This document shows, in pieces, positions 966 to 33,939 of a stretch of DNA of 64,000 nt (its first letter is position 1; every line of letters starts with the position of its first letter). The position numbers and the translations under genes are program-made. Source of the DNA: Verrucomicrobiota bacterium (GTDB taxonomy: Bacteria; Verrucomicrobiota; Verrucomicrobiia; Limisphaerales; UBA1319); NCBI GenBank assembly GCA_022709905.1, contig JAKLHY010000004.1, forward strand, positions 1 to 64,000, in the 5' to 3' direction. The notes under the pieces were generated by a model. It had not been told where the DNA came from, ran no database searches, and was given only the letters and a program-made list of their open reading frames with translations.

Positions 966-1246
966 TTAAGGGTCCGTGCAAAAAGTAACTTCCGATTTTG
1001 GCGGGAGCGTCGCCGGGTCAGATGCTAGGCGCGTGGGCGGGAGTGTATCCTCGGTGATACTCGACCGTCCACGCAACAACGCAGATGACCCGGCCCCGCC
1101 CCGCCCCAGAGGGCTGCGAGGATTTGGCTCGCTGGCTTCGTTACTCCTCGGTCAGAGACCGCTGCGGGTATCTTCCCTCGTCGAGCCTCGCCAGCGAGCC
1201 AAATCCTCAGCAGCAAAATCGGAATTTATTATTGTACGGACCCTAA
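966..1246. repeat. Nested-palindrome element, copy 1 (two inverted hairpin units inside outer inverted repeats)
   Basis: A non-coding 281-bp structure fills most of the gap between the permease and the giant surface protein. Outer arms at 966-1000 and 1214-1246 are inverted copies (TTAAGGGTCCGT... and the complement of TTAGGGTCCGT...), matching at about 30 of 35 positions. Inside are two hairpins. Unit A has 14-nt arms at 1012-1025 and 1081-1094 (12 of 14 paired) around a 55-nt loop, which itself folds (GCGTGG/CCACGC). Unit B has perfect 19-nt arms at 1118-1136 and 1190-1208 around a 53-nt loop. The unit B loop matches 42 of 53 positions of a loop in the copy at 33468-33742 although the stems are unrelated. 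A 21-bp G+C-rich spacer separates the units. It could be a non-autonomous mobile element or a structured RNA; no protein is encoded. Confidence 0.85.
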
Positions 1247-1328: not shown

Positions 1329-4300
1329 TTATTCGAGGACCAAACGATAGTATCGATGCGTAACACCTTCGGGAATGACATCGGGCACGTCGATCCTCTG
1401 CGGATTGGAGGTCGGGGGCCATTGGAGGAGTTCCCGCCACGGATCTTCATTCAAAGAGTCTCGGTATTGAAGAATATGCGTGGCGCCCGGTTGCTGGAGA
1501 AAACGAATGCGAATGGCCGGACCCGATGAGTCTTCCCAGGCCGGCATATCGAGGATCGGTGGATCGATATCAGTAAAGACCGCGTCCAATTCCAGATCGA
1601 AACTCAAGTCCGAGCTGGTCCCATTGACCTGATGCATTTCCACGGCCAGGACATTGGCGCCTTCGACGAAAACCGCGGGATTGACGGGGGTTGTCAGGAA
1701 GGTCGATTCATCCTCGCCGCTGATGGCATTCAGAGCCCAGGTTGACCGGGAGACGTCGCCGGCAGGGAGGTTATCGCGGAACACCTCGGTTCCGTTGAGG
1801 TAAGCCACGAAACCGTCATCCCGGATGATCTTCAGCGTGGATTCGCGGATGCCGGCGGCGTTGGTAATGGAAAACGTCTTCCGGAAATAGGTGGTGACAA
1901 ACTTATTGCCCGCATCAGGACCATAGCCAAGGATCGTGGTCTCATCGCCGTCTCCATAACCCAACTGGGTTCGGCCTGCCGCCCATGCCCGGTCGTCAAA
2001 ACCAAGCTGGCGCCAGGCCGTTCCCTGATCCGAGCCATTATCCAGATATTTCCATTCCGCGGCAGTGGGAATGATCGTTCTCTTGGCTGGCGGACGAGTC
2101 AGCACGACCTGAATCAGGTCCTCGGCCGTCAGATCGCCGTCCGAAGCCCTCAGGCGCAGCACAAAGGTGCCAGGACCCGGCACACTGATGCTGGTGTTGA
2201 GTTGATTGGCATCGGCAAACATGACTGTTCCGGGGCCGCTAACCTGGCTCCAGGCGAGGGTCAGAATCCCCGGTTCAGGCAAGGCGTCGTCGATCGCCGT
2301 TCCTTGCAGGAGCATCACAACAGGAAATCGGGCTGATTCGAGTTGCTGATCGGGGCCGGCGTCCACCAGGGGCGGGCGGTTGCCCTGGTTCTCCCAACCG
2401 GGTGAAGCAATGCCCATGCTCGCTCGCCAATTGGCTGGATCGTTTCCATAGGCATCCGATCGGATACGTTCGAGCGATGAACCTTGCCCGGCAGCATGGA
2501 CAGGCCAGGGATCGGTGGAATCATACCGCACCGCGTCGATGGTCACCCAGGGAACCGAGGTCATTCCATGGGTCTCGAAAACCGGCGTGTCGGGCTGCTG
2601 GAGTTCGATGAGTTCACCGTTATCCTGCAGTTGACCCGCATAAGGCCCCAGAATGGTCACCTGGATTGGAACGTTGTTCTGAGCTCGGAATAGGGCCGGA
2701 TCCATAGCCGTGACAAGAAGAAATCCCCGCGCGGGGATGACGACATTCGTGGGGAAGGCGAAGTCCACCCCGGCGATTCGCCACGTGTTCGACGGGTGAA
2801 TCGGATCGAAACACTTCACGGCGGCATCCGTGATGTTTTTCAATTCAATGAATTCGGCCTGGTTCGAGGCCGGATAGTAGTGAATCTCATTGAGGACCAC
2901 CGGTCCCACCCGCGGACCGCTGTTGACCGCACCCCATGTGGCTTCCCGCTGGGCCGGATACTGAATGTCCCCCACGCTATTCGTGTAGCGTCCGAAGGTG
3001 ACTCCGACGGCGGCCGCGCCGAAACGAAATCCGTCGCTGTAACCGGTCAGGTTTCCAGCCGCATTCGCCGAGAAGAGAAAAACCTCATCGCCTTGGGCGC
3101 TCAGAGAGAAGCCGGGATCAATTCCGGGGTTCGGATCAAAGTGGCTTTCGTCGAAGACCAGGTATCCTCCTGGCGGCAGGATCGTGTTGGCGGAGACCGT
3201 GTATTTATGGGGGATTCGAGGATCGTCCGTCAGCCGCCAATAGCTGATGTCAGCGGGTTGCGCGCCGGGATTATACAACTCGATACTGTCGAGCTGGGGG
3301 GGAGCGGTGTGCGACAGCACTTCGTTAATCACCACGGGCGGGATGGAACTCGGAATATCGATCGAGCCTGGTGAGCCACCGATCAGGGTGCTGGGCCCCC
3401 AGCTTTGCGGATCCTGCCAGGTGTCAAAAGCGGCCATTTCGTTCACGATGACCAGCGAGAAACCGTAGCCGTCCGTCGTCAGATTCCAGTCGTTGTCGTA
3501 GGTAAAATCCAGAATCGGTTCGTCCCATCGGCCCACCAAAGTGAGGCGCTCGCCATTACGGGCCAGCGAGTTGGTAAACACGCCGCCAATCGCGATCGAA
3601 GCGCCGTATCGTGACTGAAACGCTGTTGGATTCTTGACCAAGACCATGCGTTGGCCCGGAGCCAATACTCCTCCCGCAAATGTGAAGTCGATTCCACGAA
3701 CGAACCGAATCCCGGTCAGATCCAGCGGGGTGGAGCCCACGTTCTTGAGCTCGATGAACTGGAAGTCGTCCACCGTGTTTGTGTCACCCAGCGCGGGTGG
3801 GGCGGGATGGTACATGAGTTCTGTGATGGCCAGAGGGGGGATTTGGGTGAGAAACGAAGCCACCGCCGGGCCACTCCAATTATTGTTCAGACGAGCGCGA
3901 GCGAAAACCCGGGCATTGGACGAAATCGGCAACGGTTTGCTATAGATAACCGCGCCCGGGGCCGGGGCGCCGCCGGTCGCGCGCGGATCGGTTCCATCGA
4001 GGGAATAATACACGGTGCCTTGGGCCGCGCTCAACGCGACGCTTTCGCCTGGCACAATCGCGCCTCCCGCGCGGCTGAACACTGGCGCTGGCACAAACTG
4101 TTTGTCAATCCATTCAAACCGCCGGCCCACCCAGTTCTTCACCCAAGCCAAAACCTCGGCATAGGTCCGGGCATTGGCCAGTCCGCTGGGATTCGGCCAC
4201 ACGTAAGAACCGAGGCGGGGCCAGCGCTTGAAGTCGCGCGCCTGGGCTTCGTTCAGCAAGGCCGCCATCTCGTCGATCCGGGCTTGAACTCGGGTGCCCG

Positions 4301-7232
4301 AGAGTACGTTCGTGCGCAGGACCGACCAGCGATCGATGATTTTCTGGTTGAAATCCGGATCGCCCGGCTCGGCGATCAGGCGGCGCAGCCAAAGGTGATC
4401 CCCGGATGATATCTGCGACCAATACCAGCCTTCCGTGTATTCTCCCGTCAAATAATCCGCGTTGCCAAAACTCAGGTTCCAGTCCCAAATCGGTCCTATT
4501 CGGATCTTGCCGCCCCGGTCTTTGTGCAGGTAGTTGCTCAGACGATAACCATCGATCTGCTTGGTAAACTCCACGATCCAATGGTTGTCCACAAACGAAT
4601 CCACGTCGATATATCGAGCATAACCCGTTGCGGGGTTCCGCCACTGCGCGCCGTACAGGGCAGCCTCGAACTGGTTCAAGTGGTTGATCAGCCAGTTGCG
4701 TTGCGCGGAAGTTAACTCCGAGCCTTTCGGATCGTGGTACTTCAAATACTGCCCGCTTGACGTGCTGAATCCCATGTCCCCGGGGCTATCCTTGTCTTTC
4801 TTGAAGATATACCCCCCGGTGATCGCTGGTTCTGTGTCGTCATTCGGCCCCAGTTTTGCGATGTCGACCCGGCCTTCATCGATCTTGATCTTCTCCAGGA
4901 GCAGGTAAATGCCGACATAATCATTGTAGCCGACCTTCCCCGAGGGATCCGAACCGCCCTCGGGGCGCGTGCCGTTCAGAAAGACCTCGACGTGCCGCCG
5001 GCGCACGGCGTAATGCCCCATCTGTTCAAAGAGTTCGTGCGCGAGAAAATCATTGAGGAAGGTCTTGTCATTGTAAGTATTGAGCAGGACCCAGTCGGAC
5101 TCGGCCGGCATGCCCAGCAGCGAGGCGTTGCGATCCTGGTTGTCCTCGTCCCGGATCTCGACGTTGTACGGTTTCTTGGGAAAACCCCATGAGGTTTGCC
5201 CCCGTCCCTCGATCCCGATGCGGCCGTGGAAATCGGGTGGGTCCACCAGAGTGGCCACGCCGCTGGGTTGAGACACATCGATCACGGTCAAGGAGGCATC
5301 TACCAGGGATGCCATATCCGGGCTGATGGACCGGCCGTACGCATTGACCACAACCAGCGGCAATCGAGAGCTGAAACTCCGGGTGTCAAGATCCAACAAC
5401 GTGTAAATGGCGGTGACCGGGGCGCTGGGCGTCAGTCCCGGAACAAAAGCCCGGGCTCGAATGGCCACCGAGTTGCTGATTGCAAGGGGCGCTGTGTAAA
5501 GCGCCGAGTTTTCCATCGGGATTTTGTTGTCGAGCGTGTAACGGATCACGGCGCCGGGCGTGCTGGAAAAGAGGCTGACCACCAGGTTGCTGGTGTAAAT
5601 CCCGCCCGGCATCGAAAACTGAACCGGAGTGGCCGGAGCCGGTCGAGGGGTGACATTGGGTTGTCCCGGCGTGGCCGGTGCGAAATAGCCGTAGGCCACG
5701 CCCTCGCTCTGAAACGCCACCAGTTCGGCCAGGATCAGAAAATCACCGCCCGCAAGGGCCTCGTTGAATCCTTGAATCGCGAACACGTTGGCCCCCTCGC
5801 GAAGCTCCGCCCGATGAACCGTCAGATCGATGATTTCCCAGTCCCGCCCCGAGTGACTCGAGGTTGCGGTGGAGTTCCAGGTCGGCGTCGCGGGCGCGTT
5901 GCGTCGAGCCACTTCCACGCCATTCAAGTAGGCAACAAAACCGTCGTCATACTTGATCTTTAGGCTCAGGGACCCTTTCGCTGTCGGGTTCGTGACCTGA
6001 AAGGGGAGCCGGATTTGGGCCGAACTGCGCCGGTTCAGCATCTGTGACTGCGCATCGGTCCGAATATCCGAGCGATAACCCGATCCCAGCCCGCCGGTCA
6101 TCGGAGTCGATGCGACCGCCAATCCGCCCTGAGCCGTGTCGCCGATCAGACGAAAGCTGGATTCGTTCCAGAAACTGAAAGCCCCCTTGGCCCCCCAAAA
6201 CTCGAGCTCGGATCCGCCTCCGCGCTCGTAAAACACCAGTCGCAACGGATAGGTCCCCGCCGCCGGAACATTGAATGTCGCCAACGTGTCTCCCGGCCCT
6301 CGAGGATCAGGATAGGCCATTTCATAACTCCCAATCTTAAGCCCGAAACCATCGTCGCTGTTGACTCCGAATGTCCATTGGCCCGCAGCCGGAATCGTGA
6401 GTGTCGCAGTCGCTTCGACCACGAAATCCTCCACATCCTCGTTCGGGTTGAGTCCCGGAAAGGACTCGTTATCAAAGTAATAGCCATCTCCGCCCGAGTT
6501 AAAGAAGTTGATCACACGCGTATTGGCCGTGAACACGGCCGCCTGTAGGGCAGGGGAGGCAAGGACCTGTTCGGCCTCGGACAGGCTGCTGACCATGCCG
6601 GCGGCTTTGACGGTTCGGACCGCAAATCCCGGGACCACCGTCTCGAAGCCCACCCCATTGGTGCCGGCCGTCCAGGCGCTGTCGTTGAAGGCCGGACTGG
6701 TCCAGGCGAGACCCAGGGAATCATCGTCGGGGATCCGGATTCGGACCGGCGCGTTGCTGGCAATCAGCACTGTGGACTGGCCTGTACCGTAAGAAATGTC
6801 CGGGTATTGCGCTGGATAGGCGGGCCACAACTCCGAGGCCACCGTCTGGCCGTCGGGCTTGACGAGGGCCAGGTATTCGCCTTCTCGAGAAAGTCCGAAA
6901 CTTGTATGCAGCGGCGCCCCCGCCGCGCGTCGGTCTTTACCCGATGAAAACACCACCAGAAAGGCATGTGGATTCAGGTTGGTGGCCGGAAACTGCCACC
7001 GGGAAAGGTTGTTTGTGTCATCCGTCAACCACCAGCCCGCCAGATTTACGGCCTGTTCGCCGGCATTATAGATTTCAATCCAGTCTGAATACTCGCCGTC
7101 CTCATCGGCCAGGCTGGTGCTGTTCGCGGCCATAAACTCCGAGAGGATCAGTTCTTCGGCAGCCGCAAGCCGCGTGGGGACGAAAGCCAGAACGACCGTC
7201 AGACTCAGCAATAATCGCATTTTGTGGCGCAT
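1329..7232 (-). CDS. Giant secreted lamin-tail / CotH-kinase / PKD multidomain surface protein
   Basis: A protein of about 1967 residues, starting at MRHKMRLLLSL (7232; an ATG at 7220 is also possible) with a signal peptide ending near LAAAEE. Upstream in-frame codons look non-coding and were left out. In order it shows a lamin-tail-like domain (LILSEFMAANSTSLADEDG), a PA14-like beta region (SDDGFGLKIG), chitobiase-type Ig repeats (VIRYTLDNKIP; VYYSLDGTDPR), a CotH kinase-like domain with GRGQTSWGFPKKPYNVEIRD, YLLLEKIKIDEGR and the acidic DWNLSFGN, further lamin-tail domains (ITELMYHPAPP; INEVLSHTAPP; LNEIHYYPAS), a PKD-like domain (VDAGPDQQLESARF) and a C-terminal jelly-roll-like segment. 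Such proteins are common in Verrucomicrobia and Planctomycetes. They are exported and their substrates are not established. CotH proteins of spores phosphorylate coat proteins; whether this domain is active is not shown here. Confidence 0.85.
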   Translation of the reverse strand: MRHKMRLLLSLTVVLAFVPTRLAAAEELILSEFMAANSTSLADEDGEYSDWIEIYNAGEQAVNLAGWWLTDDTNNLSRWQFPATNLNPHAFLVVFSSGKDRRAAGAPLHTSFGLSREGEYLALVKPDGQTVASELWPAYPAQYPDISYGTGQSTVLIASNAPVRIRIPDDDSLGLAWTSPAFNDSAWTAGTNGVGFETVVPGFAVRTVKAAGMVSSLSEAEQVLASPALQAAVFTANTRVINFFNSGGDGYYFDNESFPGLNPNEDVEDFVVEATATLTIPAAGQWTFGVNSDDGFGLKIGSYEMAYPDPRGPGDTLATFNVPAAGTYPLRLVFYERGGGSELEFWGAKGAFSFWNESSFRLIGDTAQGGLAVASTPMTGGLGSGYRSDIRTDAQSQMLNRRSSAQIRLPFQVTNPTAKGSLSLKIKYDDGFVAYLNGVEVARRNAPATPTWNSTATSSHSGRDWEIIDLTVHRAELREGANVFAIQGFNEALAGGDFLILAELVAFQSEGVAYGYFAPATPGQPNVTPRPAPATPVQFSMPGGIYTSNLVVSLFSSTPGAVIRYTLDNKIPMENSALYTAPLAISNSVAIRARAFVPGLTPSAPVTAIYTLLDLDTRSFSSRLPLVVVNAYGRSISPDMASLVDASLTVIDVSQPSGVATLVDPPDFHGRIGIEGRGQTSWGFPKKPYNVEIRDEDNQDRNASLLGMPAESDWVLLNTYNDKTFLNDFLAHELFEQMGHYAVRRRHVEVFLNGTRPEGGSDPSGKVGYNDYVGIYLLLEKIKIDEGRVDIAKLGPNDDTEPAITGGYIFKKDKDSPGDMGFSTSSGQYLKYHDPKGSELTSAQRNWLINHLNQFEAALYGAQWRNPATGYARYIDVDSFVDNHWIVEFTKQIDGYRLSNYLHKDRGGKIRIGPIWDWNLSFGNADYLTGEYTEGWYWSQISSGDHLWLRRLIAEPGDPDFNQKIIDRWSVLRTNVLSGTRVQARIDEMAALLNEAQARDFKRWPRLGSYVWPNPSGLANARTYAEVLAWVKNWVGRRFEWIDKQFVPAPVFSRAGGAIVPGESVALSAAQGTVYYSLDGTDPRATGGAPAPGAVIYSKPLPISSNARVFARARLNNNWSGPAVASFLTQIPPLAITELMYHPAPPALGDTNTVDDFQFIELKNVGSTPLDLTGIRFVRGIDFTFAGGVLAPGQRMVLVKNPTAFQSRYGASIAIGGVFTNSLARNGERLTLVGRWDEPILDFTYDNDWNLTTDGYGFSLVIVNEMAAFDTWQDPQSWGPSTLIGGSPGSIDIPSSIPPVVINEVLSHTAPPQLDSIELYNPGAQPADISYWRLTDDPRIPHKYTVSANTILPPGGYLVFDESHFDPNPGIDPGFSLSAQGDEVFLFSANAAGNLTGYSDGFRFGAAAVGVTFGRYTNSVGDIQYPAQREATWGAVNSGPRVGPVVLNEIHYYPASNQAEFIELKNITDAAVKCFDPIHPSNTWRIAGVDFAFPTNVVIPARGFLLVTAMDPALFRAQNNVPIQVTILGPYAGQLQDNGELIELQQPDTPVFETHGMTSVPWVTIDAVRYDSTDPWPVHAAGQGSSLERIRSDAYGNDPANWRASMGIASPGWENQGNRPPLVDAGPDQQLESARFPVVMLLQGTAIDDALPEPGILTLAWSQVSGPGTVMFADANQLNTSISVPGPGTFVLRLRASDGDLTAEDLIQVVLTRPPAKRTIIPTAAEWKYLDNGSDQGTAWRQLGFDDRAWAAGRTQLGYGDGDETTILGYGPDAGNKFVTTYFRKTFSITNAAGIRESTLKIIRDDGFVAYLNGTEVFRDNLPAGDVSRSTWALNAISGEDESTFLTTPVNPAVFVEGANVLAVEMHQVNGTSSDLSFDLELDAVFTDIDPPILDMPAWEDSSGPAIRIRFLQQPGATHILQYRDSLNEDPWRELLQWPPTSNPQRIDVPDVIPEGVTHRYYRLVLE

Positions 7233-7445
7233 AAAATTGGTTCCGAGCCAAGAGATATGCCCGGTGCCTGCAAGCCTGTAAAAGCAAATCGCATGCCGGG
7301 AGATTCCGATGAACCGTCGGTTTCCTGACCTGTGCCGCCGGATCCGGCAGAACGCCTCAAGGGTTCCTGACGCTGACTTCCCCATTGCTTCCGAGCAGAT
7401 TCTTTGGCATGAGAAAGGGGCGCGAGGGATAATCCGGCGCAATAT

Positions 7446-27524: not shown

Positions 27525-27602
27525 TCGCGACAATATTTATCGCAGCTACGAACTAATTTGTCGCGACAAAAAATATCGTGGCTGCGATAAATATTGTCGC
27601 GA
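27525..27602. repeat. Nested palindrome between convergent genes
   Basis: A 27-bp inverted repeat (27525-27551 and 27576-27602, one mismatch; arms contain CGCGACAATATTTATCGCAG) surrounds a 24-bp loop, which itself contains a perfect 14-bp palindrome, TTTGTCGCGACAAA, at 27557-27570. TCGCGA therefore occurs three times. It lies between the 3' end of the NtrC-type gene and the 3' end of coaB, where a bidirectional terminator could sit, but there is no proper T-run. It may be a protein-binding or recombination site or a relic of a small mobile element. Confidence 0.8.
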
Positions 27603-32263: not shown

Positions 32264-33484
32264 ATGAATGCTACCTCCGCCATGATTGCTCCGCCCGAAT
32301 TCATCCTCGATGACAGTGACGACGTGAAGTCGTCCAGTGCCATTGTTCTCATCGTGGATGACTGCACCAGGAACATCCAGATTGTCGGTTCGATCCTTAC
32401 AGAGGCCGGCTATGAAGTCATGCCGGCCACCAGTGGACGCCAGGCCTTGGCGCGTATCGTCAATCAGTTGCCGGACCTGATTCTTCTGGATCTGATGATG
32501 CCAGAAATTGACGGCATGGAAGTCTGCCGCCGCCTGAAAAATGACCCGGCCACCCAGGAGATTCCTGTGATTTTTTTGACTGCAAGTTCCGAAACGGGCC
32601 ACCTGGTCGAGGCCTTCGAGTCTGGCGCGGTCGACTACGTGACCAAACCTTTCAACGCCATGGAACTGCTGGCTCGGGTGAAGACCCATCTGGAACTGAA
32701 ACAGAACCGCGAAGCCTTGCAGCGTTACGCCAATCAATTGCGCGAAATGAACAATGAGAAAAACGAACTGATGTCCATTGCCGCCCACGATTTGCGCAAT
32801 CCCCTGAACAACCTGATGAGCTGCATTGAAATGATCCGCCCCGAATCCAGTCCCGCAGATGAACGTCAGGAATCGTTGTTTGAAATTATGACCAATTCGG
32901 TCGATCACATGCTGCAATTGGTCAATAACCTCCTGGATGTGAATGCCATCGAGTCCGGCAAATGGCAACTCAACCTGACCCGGTGTGATTTGCGGGAGAT
33001 TCTGGTGGATGTCGTCAACAGCTACGACAACAAGGCCGCCGCCAAACAACAATCGCTCATTCTGGATTGTCCCCTGACCGCATTGCCAGCCGACCTGGAT
33101 TTCACAGGCGCGACCGAGGTGATCGGCAACCTCATTTCCAACGCCATCAAGTATTCGCCTCCCGGCAAGGCCATCCAGATCCGTGCCGACTCCAATGAAG
33201 ACCGGATCCGCATCGAAGTCCAGGATCAAGGCCCCGGCCTGACCCCTGAAGACAAGACCCGGTTATTCGGCAAATTTGCCCGATTAAGCGCCCGGCCGAC
33301 GGCCAACGAGCCATCCACAGGATTAGGGCTGTCCATTGTGAAAAAAATGGTGGAACTGATGAATGGGTCGGTGGGCTGCGAGAGTGAACCCGGACACGGC
33401 GCCACGTTTTTCGTCGAGTGGCCAACCCCCGAATCCGATCCACTCCCGGAACCTTCCTCGGTTGAGTTATACACGACGTCATAA
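32264..33484 (+). CDS. Receiver-histidine kinase (REC-HisKA-HATPase)
   Basis: A 406-residue protein in which a receiver (IVLIVDDCTRN; LILLDLMMPEIDGME; VIFLTASSE; YVTKPFN) is followed by a coiled linker and a kinase: MSIAAHDLRNPLNNLMSCIE (H-box), LISNAIKYSPPGKAI (N-box), DQGPGLTPEDK, and STGLGLSIVKKMVELM (G2). It begins 7 bp after the hybrid kinase. Receiver-first kinases usually have their activity set by upstream phosphorylation. The last codons (LYTTS-stop) lie inside the left outer arm of nested-palindrome element copy 2, so the present C-terminus may have been shaped by that element. Confidence 0.93.
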   Translation: MNATSAMIAPPEFILDDSDDVKSSSAIVLIVDDCTRNIQIVGSILTEAGYEVMPATSGRQALARIVNQLPDLILLDLMMPEIDGMEVCRRLKNDPATQEIPVIFLTASSETGHLVEAFESGAVDYVTKPFNAMELLARVKTHLELKQNREALQRYANQLREMNNEKNELMSIAAHDLRNPLNNLMSCIEMIRPESSPADERQESLFEIMTNSVDHMLQLVNNLLDVNAIESGKWQLNLTRCDLREILVDVVNSYDNKAAAKQQSLILDCPLTALPADLDFTGATEVIGNLISNAIKYSPPGKAIQIRADSNEDRIRIEVQDQGPGLTPEDKTRLFGKFARLSARPTANEPSTGLGLSIVKKMVELMNGSVGCESEPGHGATFFVEWPTPESDPLPEPSSVELYTTS

Positions 33485-33742
33485 ATAATTGCGCATGCCG
33501 TTGATCGGGAGAGGGCTATATGGCGAGGCACGACGAACGAGCATACCCGTTGCGGTCTGTGAGTGAGGAGAAACGAAGCCAGATGGCCCTCTCCTGATCA
33601 ACCCGCAGGGCGGCGGTCTTTTTGGCACCGGACTTTGTTGCTCGTCAGTCAAAGATCCCTGCGATATTCTCCTTCCTCGCTTCGCGTCCGGCACCAAAAA
33701 TCTTCGCCGCGGCATACGCAAGTATTTATGACGTCGTGTATA
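33468..33742. repeat. Nested-palindrome element, copy 2
   Basis: A 275-bp non-coding structure with outer arms at 33468-33500 and 33710-33742, inverted copies at 31 of 33 positions (TATACACGACGTCATAAATA...). Inside are two hairpin units in opposite orientation. The first has 22-nt arms at 33503-33524 and 33578-33599 (19 of 22 matching) around a 53-nt loop. The second has 15-nt arms at 33619-33633 and 33686-33700 (13 of 15) around a 52-nt loop. The first loop, reverse-complemented, matches the unit B loop of copy 1 at 42 of 53 positions (shared GAGGC.CGACGA, ATACCCG, GCGGTCT and AACGAA). Stems and outer arms share no evident similarity with copy 1. The left arm overlaps the end of the upstream kinase gene. 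Confidence 0.88.
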
Positions 33743-33939
33743 GGCCCTTCGGAATTTTCAAACAGGCCCTAAGCTGCGCGGATTACCCCCCTCGCCCAGG
33801 CCGCCTTCCTCCGCGTGCCCGCACGCGGCAATCCCTGAAATTTTTGTAACCTGACACCGGGTTTGCGGGAATATCCAGGTAACGGCTGCCCTCGAACGGC
33901 GCCGGTAAACACCGGATGATGAACTCGAAAGGTCGAACC

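Follow-up and report, generated by a model that had tools for sequence, protein, structure and literature searches.

A twin-hairpin body shared by gene-less elements with IS630-type and IS5-like ends in a Verrucomicrobiota genome

Introduction

A nested palindrome lies at the 3′ end of a histidine-kinase reading frame (32264-33484) in the DNA analysed here, a window of 64,000 nucleotides from a Verrucomicrobiota bacterium. What kind of element is it, what moves it, and what is its internal structure for? Our best explanation, held with good confidence, is a gene-less MITE with IS630-type ends and TA flanks, probably mobilised in trans by an IS630 transposase, whose twin-hairpin body is also held between IS5-like ends. 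Two of the alternatives weighed below, a body acting as DNA and stems repaired by template switching, contest the role of the body alone, and their odds overlap with those of this explanation.

Layout of the Element

The whole element spans 33470-33740 (271 bp). Its left terminal inverted repeat, of IS630 type, occupies 33470-33500 on the forward strand and its right one 33710-33740 on the reverse strand, as judged by arm pairing and, for the left end, by similar ends at IS630 loci. Both ends are flanked by TA (33468-33469 and 33741-33742, read directly from the sequence), presumably the two copies of the target site, although TA is its own reverse complement and such flanks are thus indistinguishable by sequence from a longer inverted repeat. 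The left end also furnishes the stop codon of the upstream histidine-kinase frame (33482-33484).

Between the ends lie two hairpin units, each with a variable stem and a conserved core carrying tandem G.A sites. Unit A (33501-33602, forward strand) matches our covariance model with 90.7 bits (E 1.4e-19) and unit B, in the opposite orientation (33610-33709, reverse strand), with 77.7 bits (E 2e-16), values that are partly built in, as both units belong to the seed alignment of the model. The preliminary description had reported outer arms matching at 31 of 33 positions and two opposite hairpins whose loops measure 53 and 52 nt. The repeat finder and the sequence bear this out: the outer arms (33468-33500 and 33710-33742) pair at 31/33 positions (94%), the repeat finder places the arms of hairpin A at 33500-33524 and 33578-33602 around a 53-nt loop, and those of hairpin B, which it did not list, were found by eye at 33619-33633 and 33686-33700 around a 52-nt loop. 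A spacer of about 20 nt had been given as well; the spacer exists, but measures 16 nt between the hairpin arms, or 7 nt (33603-33609) between the model matches.

The interior holds no complete open reading frame of at least 100 aa in an ORF scan. Since the element has no gene, its mobility would need an enzyme supplied in trans.

Copies in the Host Genome

The host assembly comprises 8,168,781 bases in 347 contigs (98.37% complete, 5.27% contamination). Searching it with the element at the DNA level gave 57 matches, a count that includes the window and single arms; many of them are limited to hairpin parts. A full second copy, 99% identical, was found at G000:C321:1247-1521; it departs from the first at 3 of 271 positions, its surroundings are unrelated to those of the first, and it too has TA/TA flanks. 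A left half copy lies at C8:835-904. At least two places (L044:1496-1551 and L048:1496-1552) carry body-less palindromes in which two ends of type T3 stand back to back; these may be elements whose hairpins were lost.

The covariance model, R1, had at least 150 matches in the host genome at E <= 0.01. Those listed were assembled into 103 elements, 47 of them pairs of units and 56 single matches, at least some of the latter having a partner unit outside the listed matches. All 47 pairs have the same inverted layout, with a gap of 6-8 nt in 46 and of 12 nt in one. The element had been described as dispersed and without a protein, and the copies throughout the genome, together with the ORF scan, agree with this. 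An ordinary, immobile RNA structure of the histidine-kinase transcript would explain a stable fold at the 3′ end of that gene, but it is hardly credible in view of the 103 elements genome-wide (among the matches listed) and the near-identical copy at an unrelated site. By rough ORF calls, 30 of the 103 elements lie between convergent genes and 21, 21, and 15 in the other layouts, a mild convergent excess, with 9 within a long ORF and 7 at a contig edge; the calls are too rough for this count to be informative.

Ends were recognised by a motif search covering the 75 nt beyond each hairpin edge and the 5 nt within it, with at most 5 mismatches per end and six end types. Both ends were recognised in 75 of the 103 elements (among the matches listed), and the other 28 were left out of the end and flank counts. 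IS5-like ends were found in 55 of the 75 (T1, 24; T1b, 13; T5, 10; T4, 6; mixed, 2) and IS630-like ends in 20 (T2, 18; T3, 2), the family of T1, T1b, and T4 (TNA) and of T2 (TA) being assigned solely from flank type and similarity. Sixteen of the 18 T2 elements depart from the T2 motif by 4-5 of 19 positions at each end. The flanks follow the ends: 50 of the 55 IS5-like elements have identical 3-bp TNA flanks (TA only in 2, no match in 3), and all 20 IS630-like elements have TA/TA. All 75 elements measure 270-276 bp.

IS630-Type Ends

A search of named genomes with the arm pattern returned nine loci. In one of them (L081) two arms starting 683 bp apart surround a 196-codon open frame. The first 176 codons of this frame, counted from its start, match HTH_29/32/33. 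These families are found in IS630 transposases, a link that the NCBIfam matches at L089 and L090 bear out. The L081 protein had a match in 61 of 146 genomes of the order, the host included. Elements of about 1.1 kb at L089 (G002), L090 (G074), and L091 (G024) have ends 4-8 mismatches from the 26-nt T3 arm. The L089 and L090 ORFs match the NCBIfam model for IS630, NF033545, the DDE halves scoring 108 and 122 bits and the HTH halves 97 and 99 bits, so that two of the four ORFs reach the cut-off of 100 bits; Pfam DDE_3 and HTH_29/32/33 are matched as well. The L091 ORF was placed as a homologue through its 54-55% identity to the L081 protein. At L208, from another class of the phylum, the twin-hairpin architecture recurs (84.4 and 74.3 bits), and one arm of that element is identical over 25 nt to one end of the IS630 fragment L081. 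Judged by sequence, then, the outer arms of the element are IS630-type ends. An IS630 helper with T3 ends was not found in the host assembly, where three DDE_3 matches all lack T3 ends and the relatives of the L081 protein are one protein of 27% identity and one fragment of 37% identity.

The preliminary description had instead proposed an enzyme of the RAYT type. A REP-like element mobilised by a Y1/RAYT transposase would fit the high copy number and the palindromes in opposite orientation, and the host genome does have 13 Y1_Tnp matches; however, target-type flanks and IS630- or IS5-type ends belong to DDE transposases, not to Y1/RAYT enzymes, and we consider this origin very improbable. Nor was a Y1/RAYT gene flanked by the loop sequence, as had been suggested, found among the 13 matches: two loci have model matches within about 1.5 kb, on one side only. 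These amount to three elements, a slight and weak excess over the roughly 0.5-0.7 expected for about 100-150 elements in 8.2 Mb. At the closest Y1_Tnp locus (C301), the two elements have IS5-like ends and TNA flanks of their own.

Ends of the RIT or tyrosine-recombinase kind, considered for their A/T-rich arm, were rejected, as the host has no trio of adjacent full-length genes and the ends are IS630-like. The host has 20 Phage_integrase matches, three of them within 6.2 kb on C6, two of which are short pieces, and contigs with T3 arms have no Phage_integrase match. Scanning the pattern loci with a crude motif for tyrosine recombinases gave one frame in L077, taken for chance. The end sequence is not printed in the accessible part of the RIT paper (PMC3414803).

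IS5-Like Sister Elements

A second copy of the body in the window (970-1243, 274 bp) has IS5-like ends of type T1 and TAA flanks (967-969 and 1244-1246). Its units lie at 1002-1104 (forward strand, 80.5 bits) and, in the opposite orientation, at 1113-1213 (reverse strand, 108.8 bits). It had been described as sharing the layout of the element at 33470-33740 but not its arms, and this is what we observe: ends and stems are unlike, and the hairpin cores align. Nearby, 1329-7442 encodes a 2037-aa ORF with CotH kinase and lamin-tail domains. Elsewhere in the window, 27525-27602 forms an inverted repeat with 27-nt arms, which start with TCGCGACAATATTTATCGCAGC, and 24 nt between them; the hairpin model has no match there.

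A candidate enzyme family for the sisters was found at L184 (G055), where an IS5-family (IS5_3) transposase (NF033580, 227 bits, cut-off 110; DDE_Tnp_1 and DUF4096) is bounded by ends 1-3 of 17 positions off the T5/T5b motifs. The L184 element itself is flanked by TGA and TAA, which do not form a clean duplication. The TNA-target group of IS5 is, we assume, the IS1031-like one. A remnant of a T5 (IS5-like) end, with 5 mismatches of 29, adjoins the element at 33742-33770; from this sequence, the element may have inserted beside or within an older sister.

One Body between Several Ends

Comparing one representative per end type, the bodies of IS630-like (T2, T3) and IS5-like (T1, T1b, T4, T5) elements are 61-72% identical, with z of 9-17 against 100 shuffles. 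The subterminal sequence GCTATACATTCG is common to T1b elements with TNA flanks (for example C13:32559 and C301:30174) and to the T2 elements with TA flanks at C315 and C337, whereas their outermost letters differ, which looks like an exchange of ends. In a hybrid element (G000:C288:29583-29792), the left end is of type T1b and the right end of type T1.

The hairpin model had no match in 18 loci, among them three elements and two fragments of IS630, the IS5 element, the host DDE_3 loci, and solo arms. With the hairpin absent from the three complete IS630 elements and from the one IS5 element, the body is not a simple deletion remnant of a parent transposon in the cases examined. The proposal that the loop is recognised by the transposase is not supported: the same core lies between different end types, and the complete IS630 and IS5 elements examined do without it. 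Together these observations suggest that the folded body, rather than any one transposon, keeps being copied.

A Conserved Fold

The seed alignment of the model contains 24 distinct hairpin units from the host genome and its relatives, namely unit B of the window and 23 chosen by script, unit A included. The script required an AGGC/AAC core and at least 14 of 18 stem positions paired (G.T counted), and removed near-duplicates; some of the pairing in the seed is thus due to selection. RNAalifold returned 31 pairs for this alignment, with two-sided changes in 27. In an alignment of 106 units (101 distinct) fitted to the covariance model, 93.2% of cells are standard pairs, against 63.6% in shuffles; there are 845 two-sided cells, where shuffles give 271 ± 15 and slid versions never exceed 200; and the covariation score is 0.700, against 0.197, with none of 500 shuffles as high. 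The case for the fold rests on these three measures, because the number of pairs with two-sided change (27/31) is not discriminating, shuffles averaging 26.0 and 166 of 500 reaching 27. Further pair types discriminate weakly (87, against 81.2 in shuffles, 19 of 500 of which reach 87).

The conserved loops had been singled out as the key portion of the element. Conservation between unrelated stems is indeed the important signal, but the "loop" is not bare: it forms an inner helix with three tandem G.A sites, at columns 34-35/80-81, 37-38/76-77, and 42-43/72-73. Among the 24 units, the two pairs of each site are G.A in 17 and 21 (site 1), 14 and 18 (site 2), and 23 and 20 (site 3), and sites 1 and 2 are swapped for standard pairs in some units. 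The stems differ among subfamilies and yet stay paired.

Stems that are complementary only through repair of palindromes by template switching, around a core kept by shared ancestry, would give a fold without a function. Template switching is known to perfect imperfect palindromes, the bodies show sequence homology, and some stretches of the outer stem are found in more than one end type. This process does not, however, predict the tandem G.A sites or their replacement by standard pairs, and where the stems differ the core can still be recognised. It also fails to predict a strand bias among the stem mismatches: on the sense strand G.A outnumbers C.T by 22 to 3 (18 stem clusters at 70%, not fully independent of one another), as expected if the sense strand folds. 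We therefore consider this account unlikely. The corresponding comparison of G.T and A.C, with stems clustered at 70%, gave 13 and 8, which is not significant; a bias of 35 to 8 on 49 whole-unit clusters was discarded as support, as it fell to these values with stem-only clusters.

RNA folding of the sense strands gave z of -7.4 for unit A and -6.7 for unit B, with none of 200 shuffles folding equally well in either case, and z of -10.5 for the whole element, again with none of 200 shuffles as good. The antisense strands gave -5.2 (A) and -3.7 (B), and the sense strands recover the consensus better. With default DNA parameters, folding did not recover the consensus inner helix of the two units of the element.

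RNA or DNA

We favour RNA as the form in which the body probably functions, since each strand of an element carries one sense hairpin. The same MITE could instead have a body that acts as DNA, its hairpins joining the ends as cruciforms or on single-stranded DNA and aiding synapsis or copying, with no RNA role. The constant element size makes action at the DNA level a serious rival: a length of 270-276 bp in 75/75 elements across end types looks geometric (the ends having been sought within a limited distance of the hairpin edges), as does the gap of 6-8 nt between units in 46/47 pairs, and tandem G.A pairs are stable in DNA too. Against this, DNA folding misses the inner helix that RNA folding of the sense strands recovers, the absence of hairpins from the IS630 elements (three) and the IS5 element examined suggests that their transposases do not need them, and relatives contain elements, identified by eye, with a single hairpin. 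On balance we find a DNA-level role somewhat improbable.

Taking up the MITE with a body folding as RNA again, we envisage that an IS630 transposase would bind the ends, excise the element, and insert it at TA, and that most of the recognised sisters would be moved in trans by IS5-type enzymes. Bodies would pass between sets of transposon ends by recombination or capture, and the body is predicted to act as a folded single strand, RNA being the likeliest form. As units A and B point in opposite directions, a read-through transcript from either side has one sense hairpin, which might make the insertion tolerable through mRNA end protection or attenuation; alternatively, it could be a binding site for a host factor.

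A bolder reading, which we put forward tentatively and which may well prove too broad, is a transposase-agnostic mobile fold: a tandem-G.A twin hairpin, selected as a folded strand, that swaps ends and rides whichever DDE transposases are active in Verrucomicrobiota (IS5, IS630, others), the unit of selection being the fold. MITEs are usually viewed as deletion derivatives of one insertion sequence, whereas here one body stands between two unrelated end types, its stems rewritten while pairing and its tandem-G.A core kept. If the fold is selected, this would be a directly testable case in which a non-coding module survives its transposase and takes up another, and there may be a new structured RNA family represented a hundred or more times in a genome.

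Comparison with Known Systems

The element resembles the MITEs of IS630 (Tc1/mariner-like) in its IS630-type ends, TA flanks, lack of genes, dispersal, and length below 300 bp. It differs from them in its body, which in the examined cases does not derive from IS630 by shortening and is a structured twin-hairpin module common to elements with other ends; an interior derived from the parent IS, a common and not strictly defining trait of MITEs, was not found here. MITEs of the IS5 family likewise resemble the sister elements in IS5-like ends and 3-bp TNA flank copies (50/55), but the body is common to IS630-like elements, and the element at 33470-33740 itself has TA flanks and IS630-type ends.

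The BOX elements of Streptococcus pneumoniae are modular, structured, and gene-less and occur in many copies, and compared by description the present elements are alike in all these respects. To our knowledge, BOX elements have no link to the ends of two transposase families. REPINs and BIMEs with RAYT (TnpA-REP) share the inverted palindrome pairs, the high copy number, and the lack of genes. They have neither terminal inverted repeats nor duplicated targets and rely on a Y1 transposase, in contrast to the DDE-type ends and flank copies found here (TNA in 50/55, TA in 20/20). PMC3733652 describes a GTAG or CGTC tag that marks the base of the REP palindrome.

An open-access literature search found no title or abstract opening describing this twin-hairpin body or a MITE body common to IS5 and IS630 ends. 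Rfam gave tRNA only over the window, and no match at E <= 1 over the hairpins in eight loci.

Distribution

R1 has matches in 39 of the 96 related genomes and is more thinly spread across the phylum, with 16 of 239 genomes drawn, the host excluded in both cases and with the stricter filters used for sets over 40 genomes; none of the genomes drawn was of the same genus. The element had no match in plasmids (E <= 1e-5), the twin hairpin of a relative had none in plasmids and phages (E <= 0.01), and one strict pattern had no exact match in viral contigs. Beyond the phylum, the model was run on nine fetched loci, with no match for those within the 18-locus test.

Several of the fetched phylum matches lie, by eye, within longer palindromes that resemble further MITE types with other ends, and single-hairpin elements are present in some relatives. 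At L155, two of these, with ends like TTCTAATGCGCGTTCA, lie about 540 bases apart (859-960 and 1501-1601). Palindromic elements with still other ends and a related core were also seen by eye at L159, L163, L210, L215, L216, and L219. The palindromes with other ends suggest that the end types number more than the six scored. A cluster of six tRNA matches was observed at L041:432-1015, a few hundred bases from the twin-hairpin element of a relative.
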